64,000 bases of DNA from Adhaeribacter aquaticus DSM 16391. Its GTDB lineage: Bacteria; Bacteroidota; Bacteroidia; Cytophagales; Hymenobacteraceae. The notes beneath the pieces were generated by a model. That model saw only the letters and a list, made by a program, of their open reading frames with translations, made no database searches and had not been told where the DNA came from. Below are positions 49,330 to 64,000 of the stretch, piece by piece; position 1 is the stretch's first letter; each line of letters opens with the position of its first letter. The position numbers and the translations under genes are program-made. The stretch covers positions 2,505,504-2,569,503 of the forward strand of contig NZ_KI421517.1 of NCBI RefSeq assembly GCF_000473365.1, given 5' to 3'.

Positions 49330-50002
49330 AGATTTATTAGTTCAGAAAAAATGGATTACCATTTTAATTATGCAAATTTACCTGTTATTATCCGTAACTA
49401 GTATGAATGAAGCGATAATTAAATACGAACTTCATATTCTTCCTTACTTAAGGACTTTTAGAAAAATGTAAAAATTTTAAGTAAGAAATAACACCTTAGC
49501 TCAGAATACCCCTATAAAACATAATAAATTTGATGAGGAGCAAATTCATAAAAAATAAAATTTATTTTATGAGTGAAAATTTAATAGGTATAAAATCTTT
49601 CTTTGAGTCAAGCCTACATAATAACAGCTTAAAAGAAAATAACTTCTTCATAGAGAGAAACAATAAACAAATAATTTAGATTTTTCTCCTTTTTTATTTA
49701 CCTCTAGTAAGGCTACTTAATGAGCATAAAAAAAAGGACTTGAGAAGTCAATTTTTTCCTAACAAATGGAATTTAATGAGGTTTACAATTGTATATACTA
49801 CGCTTAGCAAAAGGTGCAATTTTAAATTTTTTTCTATAAAGAAAGAACTTAATTATAAGATTTATATATTTTTAACTAAATCTTTAATTTTTTTATACTA
49901 ATTTTTTTTTTATAAATTGCAATACGTTTATTAACTAATAAGGTTTTAAAAATATAAATTTTTTATTATAAACTAAGTCTGGTGTATACTTTGTATTACA
50001 AA
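49330..50002. other. AT-rich upstream region of the polysaccharide cluster
   Basis: Nearly 670 bases, among the most AT-rich of the window, between a minus-strand gene and the first cluster gene. No gene. Likely holds the cluster promoter. Long T-tracts at 49885-49912 and a TATAAATTG string at 49911 could be part of it. Nothing firmer. Confidence 0.4.
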
Positions 50003-50788
50003 ATGAAATTAAACTACTTTCTGTTAGTTGCCATTATTTTCAACTTTTCATGTACGCCTAGAAATCTGGCTTACTTTAGTGACTTAAAACAAAATACGGC
50101 TTACGAAGAAGCAATATTAAACGATATAGATCCTAAGATTCAAACTTATGATTTGCTAAGCATAACTGTAACCAGTTTAAACCCTGAAGCAAATGCATTG
50201 TTTAATACAGGGGTGGCAGCCCAAGCCAAAACAATTACAGATTTTAGTTTATCCAGAAGTAATAATAGTGAATTGGCCAGAGAAGGTTACTTAGTAGACA
50301 AAACCGGTAGTATTGATTTTCCTGTTTTAGGAAAGATAAAACTGGTAGGCCTTACCAAAACTCAGGCTACAGAAATGTTAAAAAACCAGCTAAAACTTCA
50401 TCTAAAAGATCCTATAATAAATGTACGTTTTCTGAATTTCAAAATAACTGTAGTAGGTGAAGTTAATCGACCGGCTACTTTTAGCATTCCTTCCGAAAGA
50501 ATCAATATCCTCGAAGCATTGGGTATGGCCGGCGACATGACAGCTTTTGGAAAAAGGGAAAATGTATTAATAATACGTGAGGAAAATGGAATACGTAAGA
50601 TGACACGCCTTAACCTGAATAACAAGGAAATTCTAAATTCACCTTATTTTTATCTGCAGCAAAATGATGTGATTTATATAGAACCGGATAAGATGAAACA
50701 GGTGCAGGCGAGTACGAATACCCGAACAATATCTATTATTGCTTCATTGACCACATTGCTCATAGTTGTTGCCTCAAGATTATTATAA
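50003..50788 (+). CDS. Polysaccharide export lipoprotein (Wza-like)
   Basis: About 261 residues from ATG 50003 (MKLNYFLLVAIIFNFSC), lipidated at Cys17; a GTG at 49982 is less likely. IQTYDLLSITVTSLNPEANA (~47-66) and REGYLVDKTGSIDFPVLGKI (~95-114) form the polysaccharide-export domain. VGEVNRPATFSIPSERINIL, EALGMAGDMTAFGKRENVLI form the SLBB domain. A last membrane helix (ISIIASLTTLLIVVASRLL) is Bacteroidota-typical. Exports the polymer through the outer membrane together with the kinase 11 bases downstream. Confidence 0.93.
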   Translation: MKLNYFLLVAIIFNFSCTPRNLAYFSDLKQNTAYEEAILNDIDPKIQTYDLLSITVTSLNPEANALFNTGVAAQAKTITDFSLSRSNNSELAREGYLVDKTGSIDFPVLGKIKLVGLTKTQATEMLKNQLKLHLKDPIINVRFLNFKITVVGEVNRPATFSIPSERINILEALGMAGDMTAFGKRENVLIIREENGIRKMTRLNLNNKEILNSPYFYLQQNDVIYIEPDKMKQVQASTNTRTISIIASLTTLLIVVASRLL

Positions 50789-50799
50789 ATTATATTTCC

Positions 50800-53175
50800 A
50801 TGACAGAAAAAGAATTTTTACAATTTAAACCGGAAGCCACGGAAGAAATAGATTTAAAATCGTTGCTTTTCAAGTATCTGCATTATTGGTATTTATTCCT
50901 GATCGGAATTATTTTGAGCTTAGCCTTGGCCTTTATTTACCTACGATATGCGACGCCACACTACAATATTAAGAGTAAATTATTAATCAAAGACGATCAA
51001 AAAGGGTCCGGGCTCCTGGGAGGTTCAGCTTTTAGCGATCTGGACATCTTTCAATCCAGCAAGATTATAGATAACGAAATAGAAGTCTTAACGGCTTCCA
51101 GTTTAATGGAACGGGTACTAAAAGAGCTTTCTTTAGAAACCTCGTTTTTTAAAGTAGGTCGTATTCATGATGTAGAAATTTATGGAGAAGAAGTACCTGT
51201 AAAAGTTATTGTTAAAAGATTGACTGATGAAGCTTATAAAACAAGGTTAGCACTTCACATTAAGGACAAACAAAGCTTTGTACTGGAAGAAAGCACCAAG
51301 GATGGTGATCCGGTAAAAACTGTTTATAATTTTGGGCAGCAGATAAAAAAGCCTTATGGTGTTTTTACGGTAGTAGCTAAAACAATAATCAACAGGTCAA
51401 AAAGCCCTCAAGATGTTAATATTAAATTTAATGATATTGAAGAACTAGCCCTTTACTACAATCAGAAGATAGAAATTACCCCTGCTAATAAAAAAGCAAG
51501 CGTTTTATTAATTAGCCTCACTGAACCGGTTCGGGAAAAAGGAAAGGATATCATAAACAAATTAATAGAGGTTTATAACAAAGAAGCATTAGAAGATAAA
51601 AATGCAGTTGCATCCAATACTATCAATTTTATAGACGAACGCTTACGGTTTATTACAGCGGAATTATCAGATGTCGAAAAAGATGTTGAGCGTTATAAAA
51701 GATCCAATGAACTAACAGATGTAAGCTCAGAAGCCAAACTATACGTGGAAAGTGCCAGCCAGTATAATAAGCAATTAGCTGATTTTGATATCCAACTGGA
51801 TGTTCTGGAGTCAATTGAAACTTATTTAAATAAATCCGGTCAAAATTATCAGTTAGTACCGAGTACTTTAAGTGTACAGGACCCTACCCTACTGGGCCTA
51901 ATTAGCAAGTTTAATGAACTGCAGCAGGAACGGGAGCGAATGCTCCGTACTACGCAAGCCAATAGCTTATTGGTGCAAAATATAAATGACCAGCTAGCAA
52001 ACTTGCGGGTAAATATCCTGGAAAATTTAAAAAATATAAAAAACGGGTTAAAAATTACCCGTGATAAACTCAAAGCCAATATGGCTTCTTTCAAATCCAG
52101 AATTCATAATGTCCCTTCCATTGAACGTGAATTGCTGGAAATTCAACGGCAGCAAGGTATAAAACAAGGTCTTTACCTATATCTTCTTCAAAAAAGAGAA
52201 GAATCAGCCGTTACATTGGCCGCAGCGGTATCTAACTCCAGGGTATTAGACCCCGCAAAAGTTGGTAAAGACCCGGTAAATCCCAAAAAGATGCTGGTTT
52301 ACCTGATCGCTATGTTGGCAGGAGTTGGTGTTCCATTTGCTGCTTTGTTTATTAAAGAATTATTAAACGATAAGGTACAGGAGAAAAAAGAAGTAGAGCA
52401 GGTTACTTCTATGCCTATACTGGGAGAGTTGCCGCATGACAAGTCTGGCAGTGCTGTGGTAGTAACGGAGGAGAACAGAACCTCAACAGCGGAAATGTTC
52501 CGTCTTATTCGGGCTAACTTAAAATATGCAACCTTAGGAAAACCCAATAAAGTTGTATTGATTACTTCCAGTATGAGTGGGGAGGGTAAAACTTTCTTTA
52601 GTCTTAACTTAGGTGCAAGTCTGGCTTTAACTGGTAAAAAAGTAGTGGTATTGGGATTTGATTTACGGAAACCAAAATTATTAGAAACTTTAGGTTTGCC
52701 TAATGAGCCCGGTATAGCTAATTATCTTGTTTCTGATAATATTATGTTAGATGATATTGTACAACCATCTCGAATTATGGAGAACCTCTTTGTGATAGGC
52801 TCTGGTCCAATACCTCCAAATCCAGGCGAATTAATGTTAAGTCCTAAGGTGAAGCATTTACTGGAAACATTACAAGAAGTTTTTGATTATGTAATTCTGG
52901 ATACCCCGCCTGTAGGACAGGTAGCAGATGCTTTTACCCTAGCTCCCTATATTGATTCCAGCATATTTATTGTTCGTTATAATTACACATTCAAGGCGCA
53001 GTTACAGTCAATCAATAATGATGTTTATAAAAATAAAAAGCTTAACCATCCGATGATAGTAATGAATGATGCTAAAAAAGGAAATGGATATGGCTATGGA
53101 TATGGATATGGTTATGGTTATGGTTATGGTTATGGTTATGAAGAAAAAGGAAAGAAAAGTAAAGTAGGAGTGTAA
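50800..53175 (+). CDS. Wzc-like chain-length regulator and tyrosine autokinase
   Basis: 791 residues. Wzz domain with helices near 30-50 and ~505-525 and a coiled periplasmic part (~280-430). The cytoplasmic BY-kinase domain has Walker A SSMSGEGKTFF (~590-600), Walker A' VVVLGFDLRKPKL (~612-624) and Walker B YVILDTPP (~696-703). The tail is nine exact Gly-Tyr units (residues 763-780) encoded by hexamer repeats at 53086-53139, then KGKKSKVGV. The Tyr cluster is the autophosphorylation site in this family. Controls polymer length and export; no cognate phosphatase gene in the window. Confidence 0.94.
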   Translation: MTEKEFLQFKPEATEEIDLKSLLFKYLHYWYLFLIGIILSLALAFIYLRYATPHYNIKSKLLIKDDQKGSGLLGGSAFSDLDIFQSSKIIDNEIEVLTASSLMERVLKELSLETSFFKVGRIHDVEIYGEEVPVKVIVKRLTDEAYKTRLALHIKDKQSFVLEESTKDGDPVKTVYNFGQQIKKPYGVFTVVAKTIINRSKSPQDVNIKFNDIEELALYYNQKIEITPANKKASVLLISLTEPVREKGKDIINKLIEVYNKEALEDKNAVASNTINFIDERLRFITAELSDVEKDVERYKRSNELTDVSSEAKLYVESASQYNKQLADFDIQLDVLESIETYLNKSGQNYQLVPSTLSVQDPTLLGLISKFNELQQERERMLRTTQANSLLVQNINDQLANLRVNILENLKNIKNGLKITRDKLKANMASFKSRIHNVPSIERELLEIQRQQGIKQGLYLYLLQKREESAVTLAAAVSNSRVLDPAKVGKDPVNPKKMLVYLIAMLAGVGVPFAALFIKELLNDKVQEKKEVEQVTSMPILGELPHDKSGSAVVVTEENRTSTAEMFRLIRANLKYATLGKPNKVVLITSSMSGEGKTFFSLNLGASLALTGKKVVVLGFDLRKPKLLETLGLPNEPGIANYLVSDNIMLDDIVQPSRIMENLFVIGSGPIPPNPGELMLSPKVKHLLETLQEVFDYVILDTPPVGQVADAFTLAPYIDSSIFIVRYNYTFKAQLQSINNDVYKNKKLNHPMIVMNDAKKGNGYGYGYGYGYGYGYGYGYEEKGKKSKVGV
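53086..53139 (+). repeat. Hexamer microsatellite coding (Gly-Tyr)9
   Basis: Nine GGN-TAT units, the last five identical GGTTAT. Lies in the C-terminal tail of the tyrosine autokinase. Slippage would change Tyr number without breaking the frame. Confidence 0.9.
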
Positions 53176-53367: not shown

Positions 53368-54669
53368 ATGAAAAGTAACTTACTTGCAAGAATCAAAGGA
53401 GGCCAGGTACCTGAAGGTACTGTTAGAGTAAGCGGAGCAAAGAATGCGGCAACCCGGCTTTTAGCCGCGTCACTAATAGCTGATGAACCTGTAAAGCTCG
53501 AGAATTTTCCAACAGAATTAGTAGATGCCCGGTACAAAGTAGATTTCATTAATAAAAGTGGCGGCAAAGTTTTAATTAACGAAGAAGAACAATTCTTAAA
53601 TATAGATGCTACTGGTTATTCCGATACATTACTGCTAAACTATGATTACCCAATCCGTACCACCTACTTATTAGTAGCAGGGTTAATTAAACGTTCTGGA
53701 GTCGCCCGTATTCCCTACCCAGGTGGTTGTAAGATTGGCAGCAGAGGCTATGACCTGCATATAATGGTTTGGGAAAAGCTTGGCGCAAAAGTAACTGAAA
53801 CACCTGATTATATTGAGGTATCTGCTCCCAATGGATTCCAACCCGGTGAAATAAACTTTCCTATATCAACAATTGGAGGAACTGAAAACGCCTTAATTTC
53901 TGCAGCAATAGTAAAAGGAGAAACAACTATCAAAAATGCTTATATCTCACCTGAGGTAGAAAGTTTAATAGATTTCCTTAGAACCCTCGGTGCTAAAATA
54001 GATGTAGTTGGAAATAGCTTTGTAAGGGTTATTGGTAGCGATTACTTACGGGGCTCCATCTATAGAGTGATGCCAGACCGGATTGAAGCCCTAACCTGGA
54101 TGGTTTACGGCATTATTTCCGGTGGCAAAATAGTAGTTGAAGATGTTCCTTTTTCAACTATGGAAATCCCCTTAATCCATTTACAAGAAGCAGGTATCGA
54201 CTTTTACAGAAATACCAGAAATGTAATTGTTTCTCCTGATTCTCTTATAAATGGTAACATCCAGCCATTCGAATTAGCTTGTGGCACCCACCCCGGAGTA
54301 ATTTCAGATATGCAGCCTTTTTATGTATTATTAGGTCTACACGGAGATGGAATCAGCCGAGTTTATGATTACCGGTACCCAGAAAGGATGAAATATTGCG
54401 AAGAATTAAGCAAATTTTACCCTGGTGGCTTAGAATGGACTAAAGGTGCTATTACCACCCATGGAGGTGTTAAACTACAGGCTGCTTCCGCCCAATCAAC
54501 AGATCTTAGAGGTAGCATGGCTTTAGTGATGGCAGCATTATTGGCAGAAGGAGAATCAGAAATTTATAATGTTGAAATGGCTTTAAGAGGATATAATAAC
54601 CTGCAACAAAAACTTAAAGGTTTAGGCATTTCAATTGAAATTGAAGAGCAAGAAGTTGTTAATGCATAA
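53368..54669 (+). CDS. MurA-like enolpyruvyl transferase in the polysaccharide cluster
   Basis: 433 residues. RVSGAKNAATRLLAASLIAD (~19-38, with the Lys/Asn pair), IPYPGGCKIGSRGYDLHI (~115-132, catalytic Cys121), PISTIGGTENALISAAIVKG and GVISDMQPF (Asp314) are the EPSP/MurA landmarks. DLRGSMALVMAALLAEGES supplies the conserved Arg. MurA transfers enolpyruvate from PEP to UDP-GlcNAc. The active-site Cys and Asp are kept, but loop sequences differ (VISD where MurA has FPTD). Its 3' end overlaps the flippase start by 8 bases and a murB-like gene follows, so it probably works on a polysaccharide precursor rather than peptidoglycan. Confidence 0.88.
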   Translation: MKSNLLARIKGGQVPEGTVRVSGAKNAATRLLAASLIADEPVKLENFPTELVDARYKVDFINKSGGKVLINEEEQFLNIDATGYSDTLLLNYDYPIRTTYLLVAGLIKRSGVARIPYPGGCKIGSRGYDLHIMVWEKLGAKVTETPDYIEVSAPNGFQPGEINFPISTIGGTENALISAAIVKGETTIKNAYISPEVESLIDFLRTLGAKIDVVGNSFVRVIGSDYLRGSIYRVMPDRIEALTWMVYGIISGGKIVVEDVPFSTMEIPLIHLQEAGIDFYRNTRNVIVSPDSLINGNIQPFELACGTHPGVISDMQPFYVLLGLHGDGISRVYDYRYPERMKYCEELSKFYPGGLEWTKGAITTHGGVKLQAASAQSTDLRGSMALVMAALLAEGESEIYNVEMALRGYNNLQQKLKGLGISIEIEEQEVVNA

Positions 54670-55972
54670 GTTTATAAAAGATTTGCTAAGTGTAATGCTT
54701 AGCAAAGCAGGGATAATATTGTTTAGCTTAGGCCGGGCAATAATAACAGCCAGGTGGTTAGGACCTGAATTAAATGGGACCATAACCGCTTTGGCTGTAT
54801 ATCCAGCCCTTTTTATGACTATAGGCTCGTTAGGAGTTAGCCAAGCTACTACGTTTTATATAGGAAAAGGAACCTTTAACATAGAATCCATAAAAAGAGG
54901 TATTGCCCAGTTATGGCTTTTTTCAACAATTTTTAGTTTTATAGTATGCTTCGTTCTTATAAAAGAGTTTAGTAGCGCTGGAAATAATATAATTCTTATA
55001 TTACTTGCAACGTTACCTATTCCTTTTAATCTTTTTAACACCTACAATTCTGGTTTATTTTTGGGTCAAAATAAAATAAGCAGCTACAACAAAATAAACT
55101 GGCTACCCGCATTTTTTATATTTATTTTTTCAGTTCTTTTAATAATAGTATTTAAATATAGCATTTATGGAGCCCTGATGGCGGCTGTTGCCGGTCCATT
55201 ATTTATGGCTAGCTACCTTTTTTTAAAAAATGACTTTATAAAATCATTTTCTTTAAAAATTGAATATAAGGTAATCAAATCATTGGCTTCATTAGGCGTA
55301 GTATATGCTATTTCTTTATTAATTATCAATTTAAATTACAAAGCCGATGTAGTTTTACTTGATAAATTATCTACGCCTTACCAATTAGGGATATATTCAA
55401 AAGGAGTAGCTCTTATAGAATATCTTTGGGAAATACCCATGCTTTTTAGTACTATAATATTTGCCAGAAGTGCGGTTTCAAAAGATGGAGAGGCTTTTTC
55501 AAAAAAAGTCGGGCACTTATTAAGGTTGTCCATAATAGCCATAGGTAGTATTTCCATTATTTTGATGTTACTATCTAAATTTATAATTCAGCTATTATTT
55601 GGTGAAGCATTCTTACCAAGTGCTCAAGTGTTAACTTTATTACTGCCTGGTGTTCTCTTATTAACCATATTCAAAGTTCTAAATATGGATTTAGCAGGAA
55701 AAGGAAAACCATGGGTTTCCATGAAGGCCATGGTTCCTGCCCTTATTTTAAACCTTGTTCTTAACTTCTTATTCATACCTAAATATGGGGCTAATGGGTC
55801 TGCGCTTTCGTCTACAATAAGTTATGCCATGGCTGCCTTATTATTCCTTTACTTTTACGCTAAAGAAGTTAAGGTAAGGGTTAGTGACATATTATATTAT
55901 AGTAATAGTGATTTTGATATTATCAAACAATTTATTATTTCTGGCAAACAGAAAATACAGAAGTCTTTATGA
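54662..55972 (+). CDS. Wzx-type polysaccharide flippase (MOP superfamily)
   Basis: About 436 residues from ATG 54662, which overlaps the murA-like stop; an ATG at 54635 is further inside that gene and unlikely. Around 12-14 helices, e.g. FIVCFVLIKEFSSAGNNIIL, NKINWLPAFFIFIFSVLLII, IIILLATLPIPFNLFNTYNSG-like LLATLPIPFNLFNTYNSGLF and KPWVSMKAMVPALILNLVLN. Moves lipid-linked repeat units across the inner membrane. Stop and next start overlap (ATGA). Distinctly lower GC than the left half of the window. Confidence 0.9.
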   Translation: MHKFIKDLLSVMLSKAGIILFSLGRAIITARWLGPELNGTITALAVYPALFMTIGSLGVSQATTFYIGKGTFNIESIKRGIAQLWLFSTIFSFIVCFVLIKEFSSAGNNIILILLATLPIPFNLFNTYNSGLFLGQNKISSYNKINWLPAFFIFIFSVLLIIVFKYSIYGALMAAVAGPLFMASYLFLKNDFIKSFSLKIEYKVIKSLASLGVVYAISLLIINLNYKADVVLLDKLSTPYQLGIYSKGVALIEYLWEIPMLFSTIIFARSAVSKDGEAFSKKVGHLLRLSIIAIGSISIILMLLSKFIIQLLFGEAFLPSAQVLTLLLPGVLLLTIFKVLNMDLAGKGKPWVSMKAMVPALILNLVLNFLFIPKYGANGSALSSTISYAMAALLFLYFYAKEVKVRVSDILYYSNSDFDIIKQFIISGKQKIQKSL

Positions 55973-56826
55973 AAGTTTTTAAAAATTTTGACTTAACAAA
56001 TTATAATTCTTATAAAATTAAAGCTATTTGTGCAAGAGCTTTTTTCCCGGATACAGAAGAAGATATACGAGAAATATACCAAGGCAAAACTAATAATTTA
56101 ATATTAATTGGTAGTGGCCATAATATAATCTTATCCAAAGAATATTACGAAGAAGACTTTATTATTTTTTCTGGAAACTTTGAAAGTATTATTTTCCTTG
56201 ATGATACCACTTTTACAGTTGAAGCAGGAGCTACCTTATTACAGTTAAGCGAAATGGCTTATGAAAAAAGCTTATCAGGGTTAGAAATGTTTTATGACAT
56301 ACCTAGTTCTGTGGGGGGAGCCGTTGTAATGAATGCCGGCGCTGGAGGTGAAGAAATCAAAGACCTTCTGGTAAAAGTAAGATATTATAATCCTCATAAC
56401 AATACGTTTAACGAAATTACAAAAGAAGAAATAAATTTTGAGTACCGGAACAGTTTTTTTCAGCGGAATCCTGGAATGATCATTACTAATGCTACCTTAA
56501 GATTGGAACCTAAGGATAAAGCACTAATTCGCCAGAAGATGGATTCTATAAAAGAGGCACGTTGCGCAAAACAACCTAAAGATTTTCCTAATGCAGGAAG
56601 TGTTTTTAAAAGACCGCCCGGGAAATTTGTAGGTCCTATGATTGATGAATTAGGATTGAAAGGTTATAGTATTGGAGGAGCTAAAGTTTCTGAGAAGCAT
56701 AGTGGATTTATAATAAACTTTAATAATGCTAAAGGAGCAGATATACTAAACTTAATAGAGCAGGTTAAGGAAAAAGTTCTTGTAAAGTTTCAAATTGAAT
56801 TAGAAGTAGAACAAAGAATCATTTAA
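55969..56826 (+). CDS. MurB-like UDP-N-acetylenolpyruvoylglucosamine reductase
   Basis: 285 residues. NSYKIKAICARAFFPDTEED, GLEMFYDIPSSVGGAVVMNA, GAGGEEIKDLL and FPNAGSVFKRPPGKFVGPMI (Ser211, proton donor) give a type II MurB layout, with GYSIGGAKVSEKHSGFIINF and a C-terminal Glu (LEVEQRII). FAD-binding is slightly altered: GSGHNIIL where MurB has G-x-G-S-N-L-L. The chain ends right after the Glu motif. It would reduce the enolpyruvyl ether made by the murA-like gene to a lactyl ether. Overlaps the flippase stop by 4 bases. Placement outside a cell-wall cluster suggests a polysaccharide role. Confidence 0.87.
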   Translation: MKVFKNFDLTNYNSYKIKAICARAFFPDTEEDIREIYQGKTNNLILIGSGHNIILSKEYYEEDFIIFSGNFESIIFLDDTTFTVEAGATLLQLSEMAYEKSLSGLEMFYDIPSSVGGAVVMNAGAGGEEIKDLLVKVRYYNPHNNTFNEITKEEINFEYRNSFFQRNPGMIITNATLRLEPKDKALIRQKMDSIKEARCAKQPKDFPNAGSVFKRPPGKFVGPMIDELGLKGYSIGGAKVSEKHSGFIINFNNAKGADILNLIEQVKEKVLVKFQIELEVEQRII

Positions 56827-56845: not shown

Positions 56846-59194
56846 GTGAAAATACTTTATGCAATATATGGTTTTAAAGAAAGTATAGGTGGGCATTTCC
56901 AAAGCCTAGTTACAATTGCTGATGCAATAAAATCTGCTGGAGTTGAAGTAGAGGTGTTATGCATAGGAGAAAATAATAGTCCTATTATAACAAGAACGTC
57001 ACTTTACTACCACTATATAGAAAGCTATAAACCAGAAAAAGTTATTATTAAACAAATTGAAAACCTGTTACTGAGTAATGAATATGACTGCATTCATTGT
57101 TTTGATGAATTATCTTATTATTATTTAAGAAAAAGAACTCATAAAGTATTAGTTACTAAATGTGGAGGCGAAAATCCAAAATTTTACCCATATTCAAAAT
57201 ATTTATGCCTTTTCTCCCAGGAAAACCTAGACCATTTTAAAAGTAACAAAAAATTTTCTACAAGTAATATTTGGTTAATTCCTAATAGAATTAAATCATT
57301 CCAACAGAATTATTTAGCTATAAAAGAGTTGAGAGCAAAATATTCAATAAAAGAGGAAGAAGAGGTTCTATTAAAAATTACTAGAATATCCTCGTTTTAT
57401 GAAAAATCTATAGTTCAAACTATAAAATTATTTCAAGAATTATCTAAAGAGAGAAAAAACATCAAGCTATTAATTATTGGGTTCATTCAAGAAGAAACTT
57501 TTTTTAGAAAATTAAATTCTTTAACTAAAGGGATTGACAATATTATATTTATTTCAGATAAAAAATATACATCTAATCCTAAAGAATTGATAGATATATG
57601 CACAGTCTACATTGGTAGCGGAAGAAGCCTAATGGAGGCTTCATTTATGGGTAAAATATTAGCAGGCCACACAGCTTCACATAGTTTTCCTATTTTATTA
57701 AATGAGCTAAATCTGACAAACTTTTTAGAAAAGAATTTCTCAGAAAGAGTGATTGATAATTCTGACGATAAAGAAAGATTAACTCAATTTAAAAAAATAT
57801 TGAATAATGCACCTTTACAAGAACAAAAGAGAGAATTTTCGAGACGGATATGTAAAGATTATTTTGATGTAGAAAAAGTTGTATATAAATATATAGATAT
57901 TTACAAAGAAATTTCATTCACCAAACCTTATTCACTTCCCCTGTTAGAAAAAATAAAATTTGAGATTTATTTTAAATATAAATTGGTCAATAGCATTTTG
58001 TATGTCCAACCCATAACAATGGGCTCAATAAAAATATCAGCATTAACAAACGGATCTTTTATTGTTTTTAGCATTTTATACTTACTTAAGAAAAATAGTT
58101 TTAAAATAACTAAAATTGGAAAAACTAGTATAGCATCAGCTTTAAAAACCTTTTTTTCGACGGGGACCTATTATAGCTTTTCAACTGTACTAATAGATAC
58201 ATTAAGGTCGTTAATATTTCCATTAACTTATATAGTTGCCTTAAATAGGTTTGATAAAAAGCAAATTATAAATTTTTTAATCTTTTTTTCTTTTGTAATA
58301 ATTTCCTCTTCTTCTTTCTTTTTATTAGGCATTCTTGAACCGATAAATACAGGGTATAATCTTTCTATTTTTGGGGAAGATTCTTCCGGTTTTATAGGAA
58401 TGTTTGAAAATTCACATAGCGCAAGCGTTACCCTTAGTTTATGCTTATTATGCCTTATTTATTTTCTTTTAGTAAACAAAGAACCTATATACATAAATAA
58501 AAATTTTAGAAGGGTATTACTTTTAACAATTTTGTTTGGGTTATATGTTATTTATAAAACCTATATTAGAACGGGCTATCTTACCTTAATTGTTGGACTT
58601 CTTGTTTTTTATATAAAAACCTTTAGGATCAAAAACATATTACCTTCAATTATTCTCGCAATCTTCTCATTTAGCATATTTTTTTATTTATATAATAAGG
58701 ATGAGACTTTAAAAGCAAGGTTACTAGATTCACAAGAATACTCCTCTGGTGATGCTACTAAAGATTTAGGATCTGGTAGAATCTTATTTCAAATTGCCTC
58801 GATAGATATATGGATTAATGCAAGTTTTGAAGAAAAAGTATTAGGACTAGGCTTAGATCCCTACATGGAGAAAATGGAGAAACTAGTTGGCCTCAGAATT
58901 TATGCACATAATGGTTTCATGACCTATTTCCTTAAAGATGGAGTAATCGGGTTAATTCTTTATGTTTTATTTATCTACAGTTTAATTATCCAATCAATAA
59001 GATCAAAATCTCCAGTTAAATTACTTCCTTTAGCCGTAAGTTTTTCCTATTTGTTTTACCAAATGGTTCAAGGAGGTGTAATTTCTTCAATAATGGAAGT
59101 GCTTTTAGCATTAATATACATTCTTCTACAAGAAGATAATCCAAAATTAAATTTTAATTTTAACAAAAAGATTTTAATTGAAAATCATAAATAA
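56846..59194 (+). CDS. Fusion: glycosyltransferase (GT4-like) with Wzy-type O-antigen polymerase
   Basis: 782 residues in one uninterrupted frame from GTG 56846. Residues ~1-350 are a GT-B glycosyltransferase: MKILYAIYGFKESIGGHFQS, LLKITRISSFYEKSIVQTIK, KLLIIGFIQEETFF and CTVYIGSGRSLMEASFMGKI. Residues ~400-775 are a polytopic Wzy/O-antigen-ligase module with about ten helices and the motifs FIGMFENSHSASVT, LGSGRILFQIASIDIWINAS and YAHNGFMTYFLKDGVIGLIL. Linking a transferase with a polymerase is unusual, since these are normally separate genes. The stop overlaps the next start by one base. Confidence 0.82.
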   Translation: MKILYAIYGFKESIGGHFQSLVTIADAIKSAGVEVEVLCIGENNSPIITRTSLYYHYIESYKPEKVIIKQIENLLLSNEYDCIHCFDELSYYYLRKRTHKVLVTKCGGENPKFYPYSKYLCLFSQENLDHFKSNKKFSTSNIWLIPNRIKSFQQNYLAIKELRAKYSIKEEEEVLLKITRISSFYEKSIVQTIKLFQELSKERKNIKLLIIGFIQEETFFRKLNSLTKGIDNIIFISDKKYTSNPKELIDICTVYIGSGRSLMEASFMGKILAGHTASHSFPILLNELNLTNFLEKNFSERVIDNSDDKERLTQFKKILNNAPLQEQKREFSRRICKDYFDVEKVVYKYIDIYKEISFTKPYSLPLLEKIKFEIYFKYKLVNSILYVQPITMGSIKISALTNGSFIVFSILYLLKKNSFKITKIGKTSIASALKTFFSTGTYYSFSTVLIDTLRSLIFPLTYIVALNRFDKKQIINFLIFFSFVIISSSSFFLLGILEPINTGYNLSIFGEDSSGFIGMFENSHSASVTLSLCLLCLIYFLLVNKEPIYINKNFRRVLLLTILFGLYVIYKTYIRTGYLTLIVGLLVFYIKTFRIKNILPSIILAIFSFSIFFYLYNKDETLKARLLDSQEYSSGDATKDLGSGRILFQIASIDIWINASFEEKVLGLGLDPYMEKMEKLVGLRIYAHNGFMTYFLKDGVIGLILYVLFIYSLIIQSIRSKSPVKLLPLAVSFSYLFYQMVQGGVISSIMEVLLALIYILLQEDNPKLNFNFNKKILIENHK

Positions 59195-59679
59195 TGAACC
59201 TTATTCAGGAAATAATAAAACTAAGAGGAAATACTAAGGGCGCATTTTTTATATTAATCTTTAGAATTAGCTCATTCTTTACAAAAAACTCCTTTTTTAA
59301 GATAATAGGATTACCAATAAGAATCTTTTACAAATTTTTTGTTCAATGGCTACTTTGTATCGATATACCAGATACAGTGAAATTAGGCAGAGGTTTCAAT
59401 TTATTTCATGGACAAAGTACAGTTATACACCAAGATTCTGTTATAGGTAGGAATGTAACTTTAAGGCATAATACCACAATAGGTAATGGAAAATCAGAAA
59501 AAGATGTTCCTTGTATTGGGAATAATGTTCAAATAGGTGCTAATGTTGTAATTATAGGAAAAATCAATATTGGAGATAATGCTATAATAGGTGCTGGCTC
59601 GGTTGTTATTAAAGATGTTCCTTCTTTTTCAGTTGTAGCAGGAAACCCTGCCAGGGTTGTTAAAAATTTAAAAATTTAA
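59194..59679 (+). CDS. Hexapeptide-repeat O-acetyltransferase (WcaB/CysE-like)
   Basis: 161 residues. Left-handed beta-helix repeats: VKLGRGFNLFHGQSTVIHQD, SVIGRNVTLRHNTTIGNGKS, PCIGNNVQIGANVVIIGKIN, IGDNAIIGAGSVVIKDVPSF and AGNPARVVKNL. The HGQSTVIH segment supplies the active-site His of serine/colanic-acid acetyltransferases. N-terminal ~60 residues amphipathic (membrane association). Likely acetylates a sugar of the exported polymer. ATG shares one base with the fusion gene stop. Confidence 0.87.
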   Translation: MNLIQEIIKLRGNTKGAFFILIFRISSFFTKNSFFKIIGLPIRIFYKFFVQWLLCIDIPDTVKLGRGFNLFHGQSTVIHQDSVIGRNVTLRHNTTIGNGKSEKDVPCIGNNVQIGANVVIIGKINIGDNAIIGAGSVVIKDVPSFSVVAGNPARVVKNLKI

Positions 59680-59867: not shown

Positions 59868-60965
59868 ATGTCGGTTAACCAAAAATCATCTTTAAAAATT
59901 TTAATTACTTCACCAAGCTTAGAAATTACTGAAAATGTTAGTGGAATTTCATCAGTAGTAAACACTATAATTAAAAATAATTCTCAAGTAACATACATCC
60001 ACCTTTTATCAGGTAAGAAAGATAATGAGGGAAATACGCTTAAAAGGTTTACTAATGTATTTGATAGCTACAGGATACTTTACAAACATATACAAACTAA
60101 CAATTTTGATATTCTACATCTTAATCTTCCATTAAATACAAAATCTATATTACGGGAGTTTGTAGTCTTCTTACTATGCTATTTTAAAAAAAAACCAATA
60201 CTAACTCATTTACATGGAGGCAGGTACTTAATTGAAAAGGCCCCTTACATACTGAATAAAATAATTAAATTTATATTAAAAAATTCGAAGATTGTTTTAG
60301 CTTTAAGTGAATTAGAAAAAGAAACTGTTAAAAAGGAATATAATATAAACTCTGTTAAGGTTTTAAAGAATACAATTAATTTTCCTGAAAACATAAATAG
60401 GCCTACGATAAATAACAAAGTTGTAAATATCCTTTTTTTAGGTCGGCTTCATGAATCAAAAGGTTTAGAAGTGATTATTAATGCAATAAAGATTCTTAAT
60501 ATAAATGGGTATAACACCAAGTTTAAATTAAACATATGTGGTAAAGGGCCTCTTGAAGAATTTATATTTTCAGAAGAAAAAGAAATCGAAAATATTAAAT
60601 TTCATGGAATAGTTGGGGGTAAAGCCAAAATAGAAATTTTATCTACCTGTGATATTTTTTTACTTCCCTCTTTACATGGAGAGGGTTTACCTGTTGCACT
60701 TCTTGAGGCTATGGCCTATGGCTTAGTTCCAATTGTTACCACAGATGGATCAATGGGATATTTAATTGAAAATGGTAAGAATGGTTTAATCGTTGAAAAA
60801 AGCAATCCTATAGATTTAGCAGAGAAAATAAAAACTTTAATTTTTAATGAAAACTTTTGTTTACTTCTATCAAATAATGCAAGGGATTATGTAAAAAATA
60901 ATTTCGATATAACTAACTATATCAACAACCTTAATATTTTTTACAAAATAGCTAAACCAACTTAG
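59868..60965 (+). CDS. GT4-family glycosyltransferase
   Basis: 365 residues, cytoplasmic GT-B. N-terminal acceptor half starts LKILITSPSLEITENVSGIS. The donor half carries VNILFLGRLHESKGLEVIIN (~188-207), KLNICGKGPLEEFI and the E-x7-E motif region EGLPVALLEAMAYGLVPIVT (~284-303). Adds one sugar of the repeat unit; donor and linkage unknown. Separated by 188 AT-rich bases from the acetyltransferase, so perhaps with its own promoter. Confidence 0.9.
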   Translation: MSVNQKSSLKILITSPSLEITENVSGISSVVNTIIKNNSQVTYIHLLSGKKDNEGNTLKRFTNVFDSYRILYKHIQTNNFDILHLNLPLNTKSILREFVVFLLCYFKKKPILTHLHGGRYLIEKAPYILNKIIKFILKNSKIVLALSELEKETVKKEYNINSVKVLKNTINFPENINRPTINNKVVNILFLGRLHESKGLEVIINAIKILNINGYNTKFKLNICGKGPLEEFIFSEEKEIENIKFHGIVGGKAKIEILSTCDIFLLPSLHGEGLPVALLEAMAYGLVPIVTTDGSMGYLIENGKNGLIVEKSNPIDLAEKIKTLIFNENFCLLLSNNARDYVKNNFDITNYINNLNIFYKIAKPT

Positions 60966-61448: not shown

Positions 61449-62249
61449 ATGGTTACAAAAGTTATGGGTTCAAAGAATAATATTGAACTTTTAGGGTTTA
61501 AAATTTTTAATGATAAATTGGAAAATTTAAAAATTCGCTCTAAACTATTAATCAACACTATAAACCAATATTCATATATAGTTGCGGAAAAGGATCACAA
61601 TTTTAAACAAGCATTATTAAATTCTGATATATTATTACCTGATGGTGTCGGCATTGTTGCCGCATCTAAGCTATTAACAGGAGATAAGATAACAAAGATA
61701 GCAGGAGCCGATATTCACCAGTATCTTTTAAGAGAACTTAATAAAGTAGGTGGAAGTTGTATGTATTTAGGTTCCACAGAACAAACATTAACGAAAATAA
61801 AGGAAAGGCTTGCTATTGAGTACCCTTCGGTAAAGATGACGTATTACTCTCCCCCTTATAAGCCTGAATTTTCAAATGAGGATAATGCTATAATGATTGA
61901 AGTGGTTAATAATATTAAGCCAGATGTTCTATTTGTGGGTATGACGGCACCTAAGCAAGAAAAATGGTCTTATCTCCATAAAGAGAAACTTGACACAAAA
62001 ATAATCTGTTCTATTGGTGCAGTATTTGATTTTTATGCTGGCACAGTAAATAGACCAAGCAATTTTTGGATTAATTTTGGGTTAGAGTGGTTAGGCCGAC
62101 TGGTAAAGGAACCAAAAAGAATGTGGAAGCGGTATTTATATTATGGTCCTGTATTTGGTTGGATTTTGCTAAAAGAGAAACAGAAACAAGTAAATTCTTC
62201 TATAAAAAGGAATAAATTTAAACAACGTGCTTATCCAATTTCCAAATAA
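61449..62249 (+). CDS. WecG/TagA/CpsF-family glycosyltransferase (GT26)
   Basis: 266 residues; ATG 61449 (or 61464, MGSKNN). AEKDHNFKQALLNSDILLPD, GVGIVAASKL (~57-70 on) and MTAPKQEKWSYLHKEKLDTK, SIGAVFDFYAGTVNRPSNFW, GLEWLGRLVKEPKRMWKRYL are the GT26 blocks, with the conserved Asp of L-P-D-G-V/I and the basic C-terminal membrane-contact region. GT26 enzymes add the second sugar onto an undecaprenyl-linked acceptor (ManNAcA, ManNAc or Glc types). The initiating phosphoglycosyl transferase is not in the window. Confidence 0.93.
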   Translation: MVTKVMGSKNNIELLGFKIFNDKLENLKIRSKLLINTINQYSYIVAEKDHNFKQALLNSDILLPDGVGIVAASKLLTGDKITKIAGADIHQYLLRELNKVGGSCMYLGSTEQTLTKIKERLAIEYPSVKMTYYSPPYKPEFSNEDNAIMIEVVNNIKPDVLFVGMTAPKQEKWSYLHKEKLDTKIICSIGAVFDFYAGTVNRPSNFWINFGLEWLGRLVKEPKRMWKRYLYYGPVFGWILLKEKQKQVNSSIKRNKFKQRAYPISK

Positions 62250-62631: not shown

Positions 62632-64000
62632 TTACCATTTTTTCGAAAACTTTACAATTAAACCTCCTGTATCATACAGAAGCTTTCCAGAATCAAAAGC
62701 TGTAAGAAAAGATATACTATAACCTCTGGTTAAATCTCTACTTCCTTCTAAATAAGCTGAAAATTGGTTAACTTCTGGAAAAATTCCATTTTGAGGAGGA
62801 AACCTTAATTTGCCCCTAGAACGACCAGAAATACTTGTTCCAAAAGTGCCATAATTTTTTGAATAAGAACTTTTGGCTACAAATCTCCATGCCTTAACTT
62901 GTCCTTGTAAACCTACATGAAATGCAAGCACCCGGTTATTATTAAAATAATCTACAGGATCTGAAGGCAAATTTTTTCTGGTTGAAGCCTTTGTACTTAA
63001 AAAAGGAGTTCCTATACCTAAACCTTTATATGACCAACCAGTTGAATAAAAATAGTTATTATAATAATCTTCATCACCTGAAGGGGTAATCTTTGACCAT
63101 GTCTCTCCTGCCTGATTTTTAGTATATAGAAGTTCTAATACTACCTTCCGCCATTGTACAATTTTATCCGAATTTTTCTTATTTATTAGACTAATTCCAT
63201 TTAACCCATCCATGATGTTAGCAAGATAATATAATGCACCCACATCGTAAAAACTTTGTCTGTAAGCAAAAACCTTTATATCCTGCATATCATACTCCAA
63301 CCCTAAATCAATGGAGCCTAATTGATTACCAAGTTTGGATCTCTCTATATAACGCGCTCCATCCTCAGCTCCATATGCTTTCCCTGTAATTACGTAAAAG
63401 TAAGCCTGCAAGGGAGTAAGATTAAAATGACCTGGAGCGTAAATTCTTCTATAATCACCCCAAAATACTTGATGATTAAAACCCCCATAAATCCTTATTT
63501 TCCATTCGTTCCGACCAAACTTCCCATACAAAGATTTTTGGTGAAAATAGACGTAATCCTGATCTACCCTTTTGGTAGATCCTATATTGTAGATACCTAA
63601 AGGAAGCTGCCCAACCCAACCATGGGCGAAGTTACCTTTAAAAGCAAACATTCCTTTAAAAATAGGCAAAGTATAAAATCCAGGAATTGCCAGCTGAACT
63701 TTTGGAATTCCCAAGGCATTACCAGAAATTGCAAAGGCTCCAGATGATAGGGTGGTATCTACTAAACCCATTATTTCCTTTGCACGGCCAGCCTTTAATT
63801 CAAATATACCTAAACGTGCCTTTCCATAACCTTCTACTAGTAAAAATTGTGAAGTTTTTCCTACATTGACTCTTCCCTCATAACCTACTCCCCAATCAAA
63901 TAATTTAGTTTGGGTACTATCATAATCTTTACGCAATCGGCTGATAAAACTTACAGATGGGCCGGAAAGGGGAACGCTACCAAATTGGTTTGATCTTAAC
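62632..64000 (-). CDS. Wzi-family capsule-assembly outer-membrane protein (5' part beyond window)
   Basis: The minus-strand frame is open to the window edge, so the 434 residues from a TTG at 63936 are not the whole protein; about 21 more residues (QFGSVPLSGPSVSFISRLRK among them) continue upstream and the start is off-window. Strand-rich barrel with WGVGYEGRVNVGKTSQFLLV, LFELKAGR-like GIFELKAGRAKEIMGL, FHQKSLYGKFGRNEWKIRIY, SIDLGLEYDMQDIKVFAYRQ and GLIVKFSKKW at the end. Wzi-like proteins bind and anchor capsular polysaccharide at the surface. It faces the cluster, fitting a shared job. Confidence 0.83.
   Translation of the reverse strand, partial: LRSNQFGSVPLSGPSVSFISRLRKDYDSTQTKLFDWGVGYEGRVNVGKTSQFLLVEGYGKARLGIFELKAGRAKEIMGLVDTTLSSGAFAISGNALGIPKVQLAIPGFYTLPIFKGMFAFKGNFAHGWVGQLPLGIYNIGSTKRVDQDYVYFHQKSLYGKFGRNEWKIRIYGGFNHQVFWGDYRRIYAPGHFNLTPLQAYFYVITGKAYGAEDGARYIERSKLGNQLGSIDLGLEYDMQDIKVFAYRQSFYDVGALYYLANIMDGLNGISLINKKNSDKIVQWRKVVLELLYTKNQAGETWSKITPSGDEDYYNNYFYSTGWSYKGLGIGTPFLSTKASTRKNLPSDPVDYFNNNRVLAFHVGLQGQVKAWRFVAKSSYSKNYGTFGTSISGRSRGKLRFPPQNGIFPEVNQFSAYLEGSRDLTRGYSISFLTAFDSGKLLYDTGGLIVKFSKKW

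Follow-up and report, generated by a model that had tools for sequence, protein, structure and literature searches.

MurA relatives are known outside peptidoglycan synthesis, and lactyl ether sugars are known outside peptidoglycan. In the excerpt available of PMC6801904, NikO of nikkomycin biosynthesis is described as a MurA relative that acts on uridine monophosphate (UMP). Lactyl ether sugars occur in bacterial polysaccharides, and the corresponding excerpt of PMC2901825 reports one of them, 3-O-(1-carboxyethyl)-D-glucuronic acid, in the exopolysaccharides (EPS) of Alteromonas HYD657 and 1644. Here we describe a murA-like and a murB-like gene that lie within an EPS cluster of Adhaeribacter aquaticus DSM 16391, in a 64,000-nucleotide stretch of its genome (contig NZ_KI421517.1, positions 2,505,504 to 2,569,503), referred to below as the window. 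In the open-access literature we recognized no gene pair assigned to lactyl ether sugars and no report of MurA/MurB in polysaccharide clusters, and the excerpts available of PMC8657804, PMC11340318, and PMC4189415 describe no such MurA/MurB or lactyl-sugar gene pair.

Comparison of the window with related loci suggests that a mobile MurA/MurB cassette is likely to make a 3-O-lactyl sugar nucleotide for an exported polymer. The MurA-like enzyme would move enolpyruvate from phosphoenolpyruvate (PEP) onto the 3-hydroxyl of a uridine diphosphate (UDP)-sugar, and the MurB-like flavoenzyme would then reduce the enolpyruvyl product to a D-lactyl ether. A glycosyltransferase of the cluster, in the window probably the glycosyltransferase family 4 (GT4) half of the next gene, would use the acidic UDP-sugar to build a lipid-linked repeat unit that Wzx would flip, Wzy would polymerize, and Wza and Wzc would export. 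Such a side-branch would be separate from the housekeeping peptidoglycan pair and would travel between genomes as a cassette. We regard the two reactions, their order, and the delivery of the product to the polymer as, jointly, quite probable, and the reading as a whole, a dedicated MurA/MurB side-branch of muramic-acid chemistry for an exported polymer, as probable.

A second MurA/MurB pair in the genome

The initial annotation of the window had described a murA-like gene, a flippase gene, and a murB-like gene in that order, with overlaps of 8 and 4 bases, inside a Wza/Wzc/Wzx/Wzy cluster. This arrangement was confirmed. All frames are intact, the flippase and murB-like genes overlap by exactly 4 bases (55969-55972), and the 8-base overlap with the murA-like gene holds for the preferred flippase start, ATG 54662 (the longest listed open reading frame starts at TTG 54635). 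The neighbors, assigned by Pfam, include Wza, Wzc, Wzx, and Wzy-like proteins and glycosyltransferases, with a Wzi-like gene at the end. Cys121, Asp314, and the VISD motif of the MurA-like protein and Ser211 and the C-terminal Glu (Glu281) of the MurB-like protein are all present as described. The claim that loops differ from those of housekeeping enzymes stood in part: VISD and the loop differences were confirmed, but GSGHNIIL has little value as a marker, since the position concerned is H, Y, or N in the four closest relatives first aligned.

The interpretation in the initial annotation also required that these not be the only copies, and profile searches across the entire genome sequence (completeness, 99.34%) found two MurA and two MurB proteins, the second pair lying ∼0.75 Mb from the cluster. 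In the housekeeping MurA (L005:7643-8950) Asp replaces the catalytic Cys that the cluster copy has, and the two proteins are 28% identical; the cluster MurA as a paralogue of the host's own MurA was rejected on these grounds. The housekeeping MurA passes the equivalog cut-off of TIGR01072 (443.2 versus 392.7 bits), whereas the cluster MurA fails it (315.1 to 315.6 bits). The housekeeping MurB is of the longer type I (346 amino acids) and the cluster MurB of the short type II, which scores 217.6 bits against the TIGR00179 cut-off of 144.5 and thus passes. The labels type I and type II for MurB and Asp-type for MurA are used here as we take them to apply.

The same duplication was found elsewhere. 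The counts below refer to 17 loci, from 13 genomes (inferred to be Bacteroidota) and four alphaproteobacterial plasmids. Ten Bacteroidota EPS genomes besides A. aquaticus were covered for second copies (G1239, G1256, and the plasmid hosts stand outside this count); two MurA proteins were found in all ten and two MurB proteins in nine. Asp occupies the catalytic Cys position in 10 of the 11 second MurA copies of EPS-carrying genomes, as it does in the housekeeping MurA of A. aquaticus.

Catalytic and sugar-pocket residues

MurA residues are numbered after the Enterobacter cloacae reference and were paired by a multiple alignment in which 33 other MurA rows (10 Asp-type, 9 from Firmicutes, and 14 other Cys-type, including the 1NAW reference) stand beside the 17 EPS proteins. 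This alignment pairs R340 with Arg331 and R336 with position 327, whereas HMMER pairwise alignment pairs R336 otherwise; the multiple alignment was preferred because the YPER and YHER/FENR blocks then match. K22, N23, R91, C115, R120, D123, H125, D305, R331, D369, R371, and R397 are kept in all 17 EPS proteins, which therefore have the catalytic Cys115, Asp305, and Arg397 and the PEP-binding Lys22, Arg120, and Arg331 of MurA. The catalytic and PEP-site roles of these residues, D123 and H125 aside, are those that we presume them to have.

The sugar end of the pocket differs consistently. Position 327 is Arg in 17/17 EPS proteins and Ile, Val, or Met in 33/33 others; position 188 is Ser, Thr, or Arg rather than Glu, position 186 is Tyr or His rather than Ala, and position 304 is Ser rather than Thr or Pro, each with the same complete separation of 17 from 33, although these are related sequences and the counts are hence not independent events. 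The stronger changes in the window protein, compared with the GSGHNIIL loop, are at Arg336, Ser194, and Tyr192. An excerpt of PMC10500568 assigns Asp305 to the glucosamine pocket and locates Val163 and Arg91 at the diphosphate, and docking papers, in the parts available, list Val327 with Asp305 among the MurA pocket contacts, one of them adding Phe328 (PMC8587927, PMC10816260). The AlphaFold2 model of the MurA-like protein (predicted local distance difference test score, 88.3) matched MurA structures best and NikO next.

The catalytic Ser, Arg, and C-terminal Glu of MurB are kept in 16/16 EPS MurB proteins. All 16 lack the Tyr of the GAYG motif, which 26 of 27 others retain, the exception being a protein of a Bacteroidales metagenome-assembled genome (MAG), L080. 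A Ser-to-Asn change beside the catalytic Ser was also considered as a marker and was dropped, since 11 type I MurB rows have Asn there as well.

A gene pair for a UDP-sugar dehydrogenase and a 4-epimerase lies upstream in 8 of the 17 loci. The dehydrogenase is TviB-like in G060, G090, G441, G418, and G300 and UDP-glucose dehydrogenase-like in G340, Haematobacter, and Agrobacterium; family profiles were used for G060, G090, G340, Haematobacter, and the A. aquaticus genome's own pair, and BLAST for the rest. Taken with the frequent presence of uronate-forming genes upstream, the additional Arg and the missing Glu in this part of the pocket suggest an acceptor that bears a carboxylate. The acceptor may thus not be UDP-N-acetylglucosamine (UDP-GlcNAc), and the "muramic acid" of the initial annotation may be wrong in detail. 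Our tentative candidate, at close to even odds, is a UDP-uronic acid, either UDP-N-acetylhexosaminuronic acid or UDP-hexuronic acid, whose C6 carboxylate would be read by Arg336. More tentative still is the full scenario, in which a horizontally moving pair of peptidoglycan origin would have exchanged UDP-GlcNAc for a UDP-uronic acid as its acceptor through Arg327 and the loss of Glu188, yielding a doubly acidic 3-O-lactyl-uronate for EPS in at least two phyla.

Alternatively, the pair might make plain UDP-N-acetylmuramic acid, so that the polymer would contain ordinary N-acetylmuramic acid and the cluster would have no more than an EPS precursor pool of its own. The checked residues that handle UDP and PEP, including Asn23, Asp123, and His125, are kept, and no uronate-forming gene is adjacent in the window, as this explanation would have it. 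However, position 327 is Arg and both Glu188 and Ala186 are absent in 17/17 loci, and the GAYG Tyr is missing in 16/16; these differences argue for a changed acceptor, and we consider the plain muramic acid route unlikely.

Phylogeny of the MurA-like proteins

In the MurA tree, which does not include the MurA of G937, the 17 EPS proteins form one side of a branch (support, 100/99), with the 33 others on the opposite side. The cluster copy thus stands away from ordinary MurA, as the interpretation in the initial annotation required. Relationships within the EPS clade are discordant with those of the hosts: the window copy groups with that of Olivibacter and the Kriegella copy with that of G340, and alphaproteobacterial copies fall in both subclades. 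Among the housekeeping MurA copies, by contrast, those of G000, G060, and G090 group together, as do those of Kriegella and Psychroserpens.

These results bear on the explanation that the two proteins are spare or back-up peptidoglycan enzymes that lie in an EPS cluster by chance, like the second MurA copies of Firmicutes. Both proteins match the general MurA and MurB families, the MurB-like protein passing the equivalog cut-off, and a second MurA is not unusual: four of the five Firmicutes-type genomes used as references have two or three MurA proteins, and the range over all five is one to three. Those genomes carry only one MurB each, however, and the MurA-like protein is under its own cut-off and outside the sampled housekeeping copies in the tree, second Firmicutes copies included. 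Polysaccharide-type or glycosyltransferase genes are nearby in the 17 loci, and the pocket is changed. On the tree, the cut-off scores, and the context, back-up copies were rejected as the main explanation, and it seems very unlikely that they account for the pair.

Pairing with MurB

A MurB gene lies within 3.5 kb of the murA-like gene in 16 of the 17 loci, G300 being the exception, and beside it in seven of the eight genomes found by MurA searches. The MurB partners are not monophyletic (T2_L140, identical to another row, was dropped from the tree). Eight of the window type group with the L080 MAG protein, seven belong to another type II lineage, and the placement of G1239 in a third is uncertain because of a long branch. 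The MurB-like partner seems to have been acquired on more than one occasion, from separate lineages of type II MurB. One MurA clade with adjacent MurB proteins from at least two lineages is good evidence that both enzymes act in sequence. The L080 protein (L080:1862-2716), a type II MurB of Bacteroidales at the base of the EPS MurB lineage and without the GAYG Tyr, is encoded on a short contig beside what reads as an aconitase-like gene, and not in an EPS cluster.

The initial annotation had placed weight on the coupling of the pair to the flippase. The MurA/MurB pair does recur in EPS clusters, but the flippase lies between the two genes in only 6 of the 17 loci; the remaining loci carry an ABC transporter or have the flippase gene at another place. 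Flippase coupling was not borne out as a general feature and was dropped as a key one.

Several observations weigh against the proposed MurA/MurB side-branch and its uronic acid acceptor. The pairing count is biased, since four loci (Olivibacter, Kriegella, Psychroserpens, and G090) were found via MurB and the choice of the four plasmids was made with the match lists of both proteins already known. G300 has an EPS-type MurA-like protein (L046:9279-10607) but a single MurB in its genome. No UDP-sugar dehydrogenase/epimerase pair was found in 9 of the 17 loci, with flanks as short as 2 kb (G1239), and no UDP-sugar dehydrogenase is beside murA in the window's own cluster. The nearest one reads as a UDP-glucose dehydrogenase, is ∼20 kb away, and gives a 25% match to the TviB-like query, and the TviB/TviC-like pair of the A. 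aquaticus genome (L214) is far from the cluster. UDP-sugar dehydrogenase genes are, moreover, common in EPS clusters generally. That position 327 contacts the sugar, on its O4/O6 side, is our assumption, and the Cys loop (121-126) is poorly modelled in AlphaFold2.

It could also be that the MurA-like enzyme acts but that the enolpyruvyl group remains as it is or serves another purpose, with the MurB-like protein decorative or acting on another substrate. The lack of a second MurB in G300 is what this explanation would predict, in 1 of 17 loci. Retention of MurB beside murA in the other 16, despite at least two MurB lineages, and its intact catalytic residues make it highly improbable, and we retain the two-step route to a lactyl ether.

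Distribution of the cassette

MurB-like proteins of the clade (≥58% identity) were found in 3 of 150 genomes of the family and MurA-like proteins (E ≤ 1e-60) in 6 of 390 genomes of the order, A. aquaticus included in both. At the same threshold, 47 of 395 genomes drawn from the phylum matched MurA, two of them (A. aquaticus and G831) at ≥60% identity and 45 at 32 to 35%. The latter were taken as housekeeping background, and none of the 12 that were placed in the MurA tree joined the EPS clade. Within G831's class, the MurA profile matched 3 of 244 genomes at E ≤ 1e-95. A class-wide MurB search gave 2 of 395 genomes at E ≤ 1e-40, the second of which (G937) has the match as its sole MurB.

In a scan of named genomes with the MurB alignment, the 80 best of 584 confirmed places are headed, at 57 to 63%, by Olivibacter sitiensis, Kriegella sp. 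EG-1, and Psychroserpens burtonensis; one Bacteroidales MAG comes next at 48%, followed mostly by Firmicutes-type records at ≤46%. A tblastn search of plasmids with MurA matched 134 of 72,556 records. From the 30 matches listed, four were taken into the set: Haematobacter massiliensis pOT1-6 at 58% and plasmids of Rhizobium gallicum, Qingshengfaniella alkalisoli, and Agrobacterium sp. MA01 at 35 to 38%. Since these four MurA proteins belong to the clade, the cassette reaches Alphaproteobacteria. Four further Rhizobium plasmid matches at 38% lie outside the set. On three plasmids, murA and murB are annotated as peptidoglycan enzymes. Separately, on a Burkholderia cenocepacia plasmid (NC_011003.1:83130-83981), an annotated murB and a carbamoyltransferase lie under a match; this is possibly another MurB outside peptidoglycan synthesis.

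The MurA frames of the other 16 loci are full-length with catalytic residues kept, six of them 57 to 74% identical to the window protein; those of Psychroserpens (413 amino acids) and G831 (418 amino acids) are open, and their stop flags were read as match ends past the gene. These frames, and the overlapping starts in the window, make decaying passengers of a horizontally acquired cluster the least probable explanation, for all that the patchy occurrence in family and order would suit it.

Gene neighborhood

The features of the cluster are listed in Table 1. Beyond the window edge, reading of translations gave genes for GDP-fucose and GDP-mannose enzymes and RmlA-like and UDP-glucose dehydrogenase-like proteins.

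Table 1. Features of the EPS cluster in the window
Feature	Position	Strand	Basis
Wza-type outer-membrane export protein	49982..50788	+	Pfam Poly_export, SLBB
Wzc-type chain-length/tyrosine autokinase	50800..53175	+	Pfam Wzz, GNVR, AAA_31; NCBIfam TIGR01007 above cut-off
MurA-like enolpyruvyltransferase, EPS clade, 433 amino acids, intact	53368..54669	+	Pfam EPSP_synthase; TIGR01072 below cut-off; MurA fold by AlphaFold2/Foldseek
Catalytic Cys121 codon (reference Cys115)	53728..53730	+	Alignment to 1NAW
Asp314 codon (reference Asp305)	54307..54309	+	Alignment
Arg336 codon (reference 327)	54373..54375	+	Multiple alignment; Arg in 17/17 EPS MurA-like proteins
Wzx-type flippase	54662..55972	+	Pfam Polysacc_synt_3 and MurJ matches
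MurB-like reductase, type II, 285 amino acids, intact, without GAYG Tyr	55969..56826	+	Pfam MurB_C, FAD_binding_4; TIGR00179
GT4 (GGH..KCGG..IPNR..NFSER type) fused to Wzy/O-antigen-ligase-like domain	56846..59194	+	Pfam; GT type in 7 other loci
Hexapeptide acetyltransferase (WcaB/EpsC-like)	59194..59679	+	Family profiles
GT4 glycosyltransferase	59868..60965	+	Family profiles
WecG/TagA/CpsF (GT26) glycosyltransferase	61449..62249	+	Pfam; TIGR00696 above cut-off
Wzi-like capsule assembly protein	62632..63936	-	Pfam Caps_assemb_Wzi, 34.5 bits versus 30.1

Downstream of murB, 15 of the 17 loci carry a glycosyltransferase gene belonging to one of three types, in one of them as a fragment. Eight loci have a GT4 with GGH, KCGG, IPNR, and NFSER motifs, the Kriegella gene being the fragment; four have a GT2, and three have a different GT4, including G300, in which that gene comes after murA. 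These glycosyltransferases are candidate transferases of the lactyl sugar. In the window, the GT4 and the Wzy-like polymerase domain share a single 782-amino-acid frame; the glycosyltransferase stands alone in the other loci aligned. The Kriegella fragment (L078:10991-11422, 143 amino acids) comes after murB, and an apparently full-length copy is upstream of murA.

Other features of these loci were noted in passing. The Wzc-type kinase of the window ends in a long Tyr-Gly repeat (YGYGYG...). A Gfo/Idh/MocA oxidoreductase gene is located three genes from the EPS-type murA of G300. The EPS cluster of G090 (L037:14765-18383) continues with an unusual set of genes, for an HMGL-like aldolase, a cytidylyltransferase, and a GT29 sialyltransferase-like protein. 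In the A. aquaticus genome, L214:5549-10035 carries TviC-like, RmlB-like, GalE-like, and TviB-like genes (RmlB-like and GalE-like named by reading), with no export genes in the stretch read.

Implications and comparison with known systems

If the proposed uronic acid acceptor is correct, the pair would provide the pathway that is lacking for diacidic sugars, among them the 3-O-lactyl-glucuronic acid of deep-sea Alteromonas EPS, and its 3-O-lactyl-uronate product would be the uronic counterpart of muramic acid. The specificity switch would reside in one residue and could be tested there, and the combination of an Arg327 MurA with an adjacent Tyr-less MurB, within an EPS cluster, would be a genomic marker that predicts diacidic polymers. 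Peptidoglycan-enzyme names in public annotation, as on the three plasmids, hide such genes. According to the excerpt available of PMC6801904, MurA with Cys changed to Asp is fosfomycin resistant in Mycobacteria and Chlamydia, and the Asp-type housekeeping MurA is likewise expected to be fosfomycin-insensitive. Since the host housekeeping MurA has Asp and the EPS copy Cys, fosfomycin should hit the EPS enzyme and not growth.

The MurA-like protein shares its fold and its catalytic residues with peptidoglycan MurA, which provided the best PDB matches (TM-scores of 0.82 to 0.90 at 28 to 32% identity), but it differs in forming a separate clade, in Arg327 and the lost Glu188, in its EPS context, and in scoring below the equivalog cut-off. 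The cluster MurB has the length, the MurB_C and FAD domains, and the Ser, Arg, and Glu of type II MurB; in contrast to type II MurB, it is without the GAYG Tyr and lies beside an EPS-type murA, and the host's own MurB is type I.

TviB and TviC, the UDP-GlcNAc dehydrogenase and 4-epimerase of the Vi antigen, resemble the TviB-like protein and epimerase encoded upstream of murA in five relatives. At 578 and 586 bits, two of the TviB-like proteins narrowly miss the cut-off of 592, whereas the epimerases are far below the TviC cut-off, and the window cluster is locally without a TviB/TviC pair. We know of no lactyl groups in the Vi antigen.

NikO (PDB 4FQD) is a structural match to the cluster MurA at only 23% identity, and its product is an antibiotic, not a polymer; to our knowledge, it has no MurB partner. 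For the 3-O-(1-carboxyethyl)-glucuronic acid of Alteromonas, we are aware of no biosynthetic genes. As far as the available excerpt on the HYD657 and 1644 EPS goes, a lactyl ether on a uronic acid within an exported polymer is the very type of product that is proposed here for the MurA/MurB pair.

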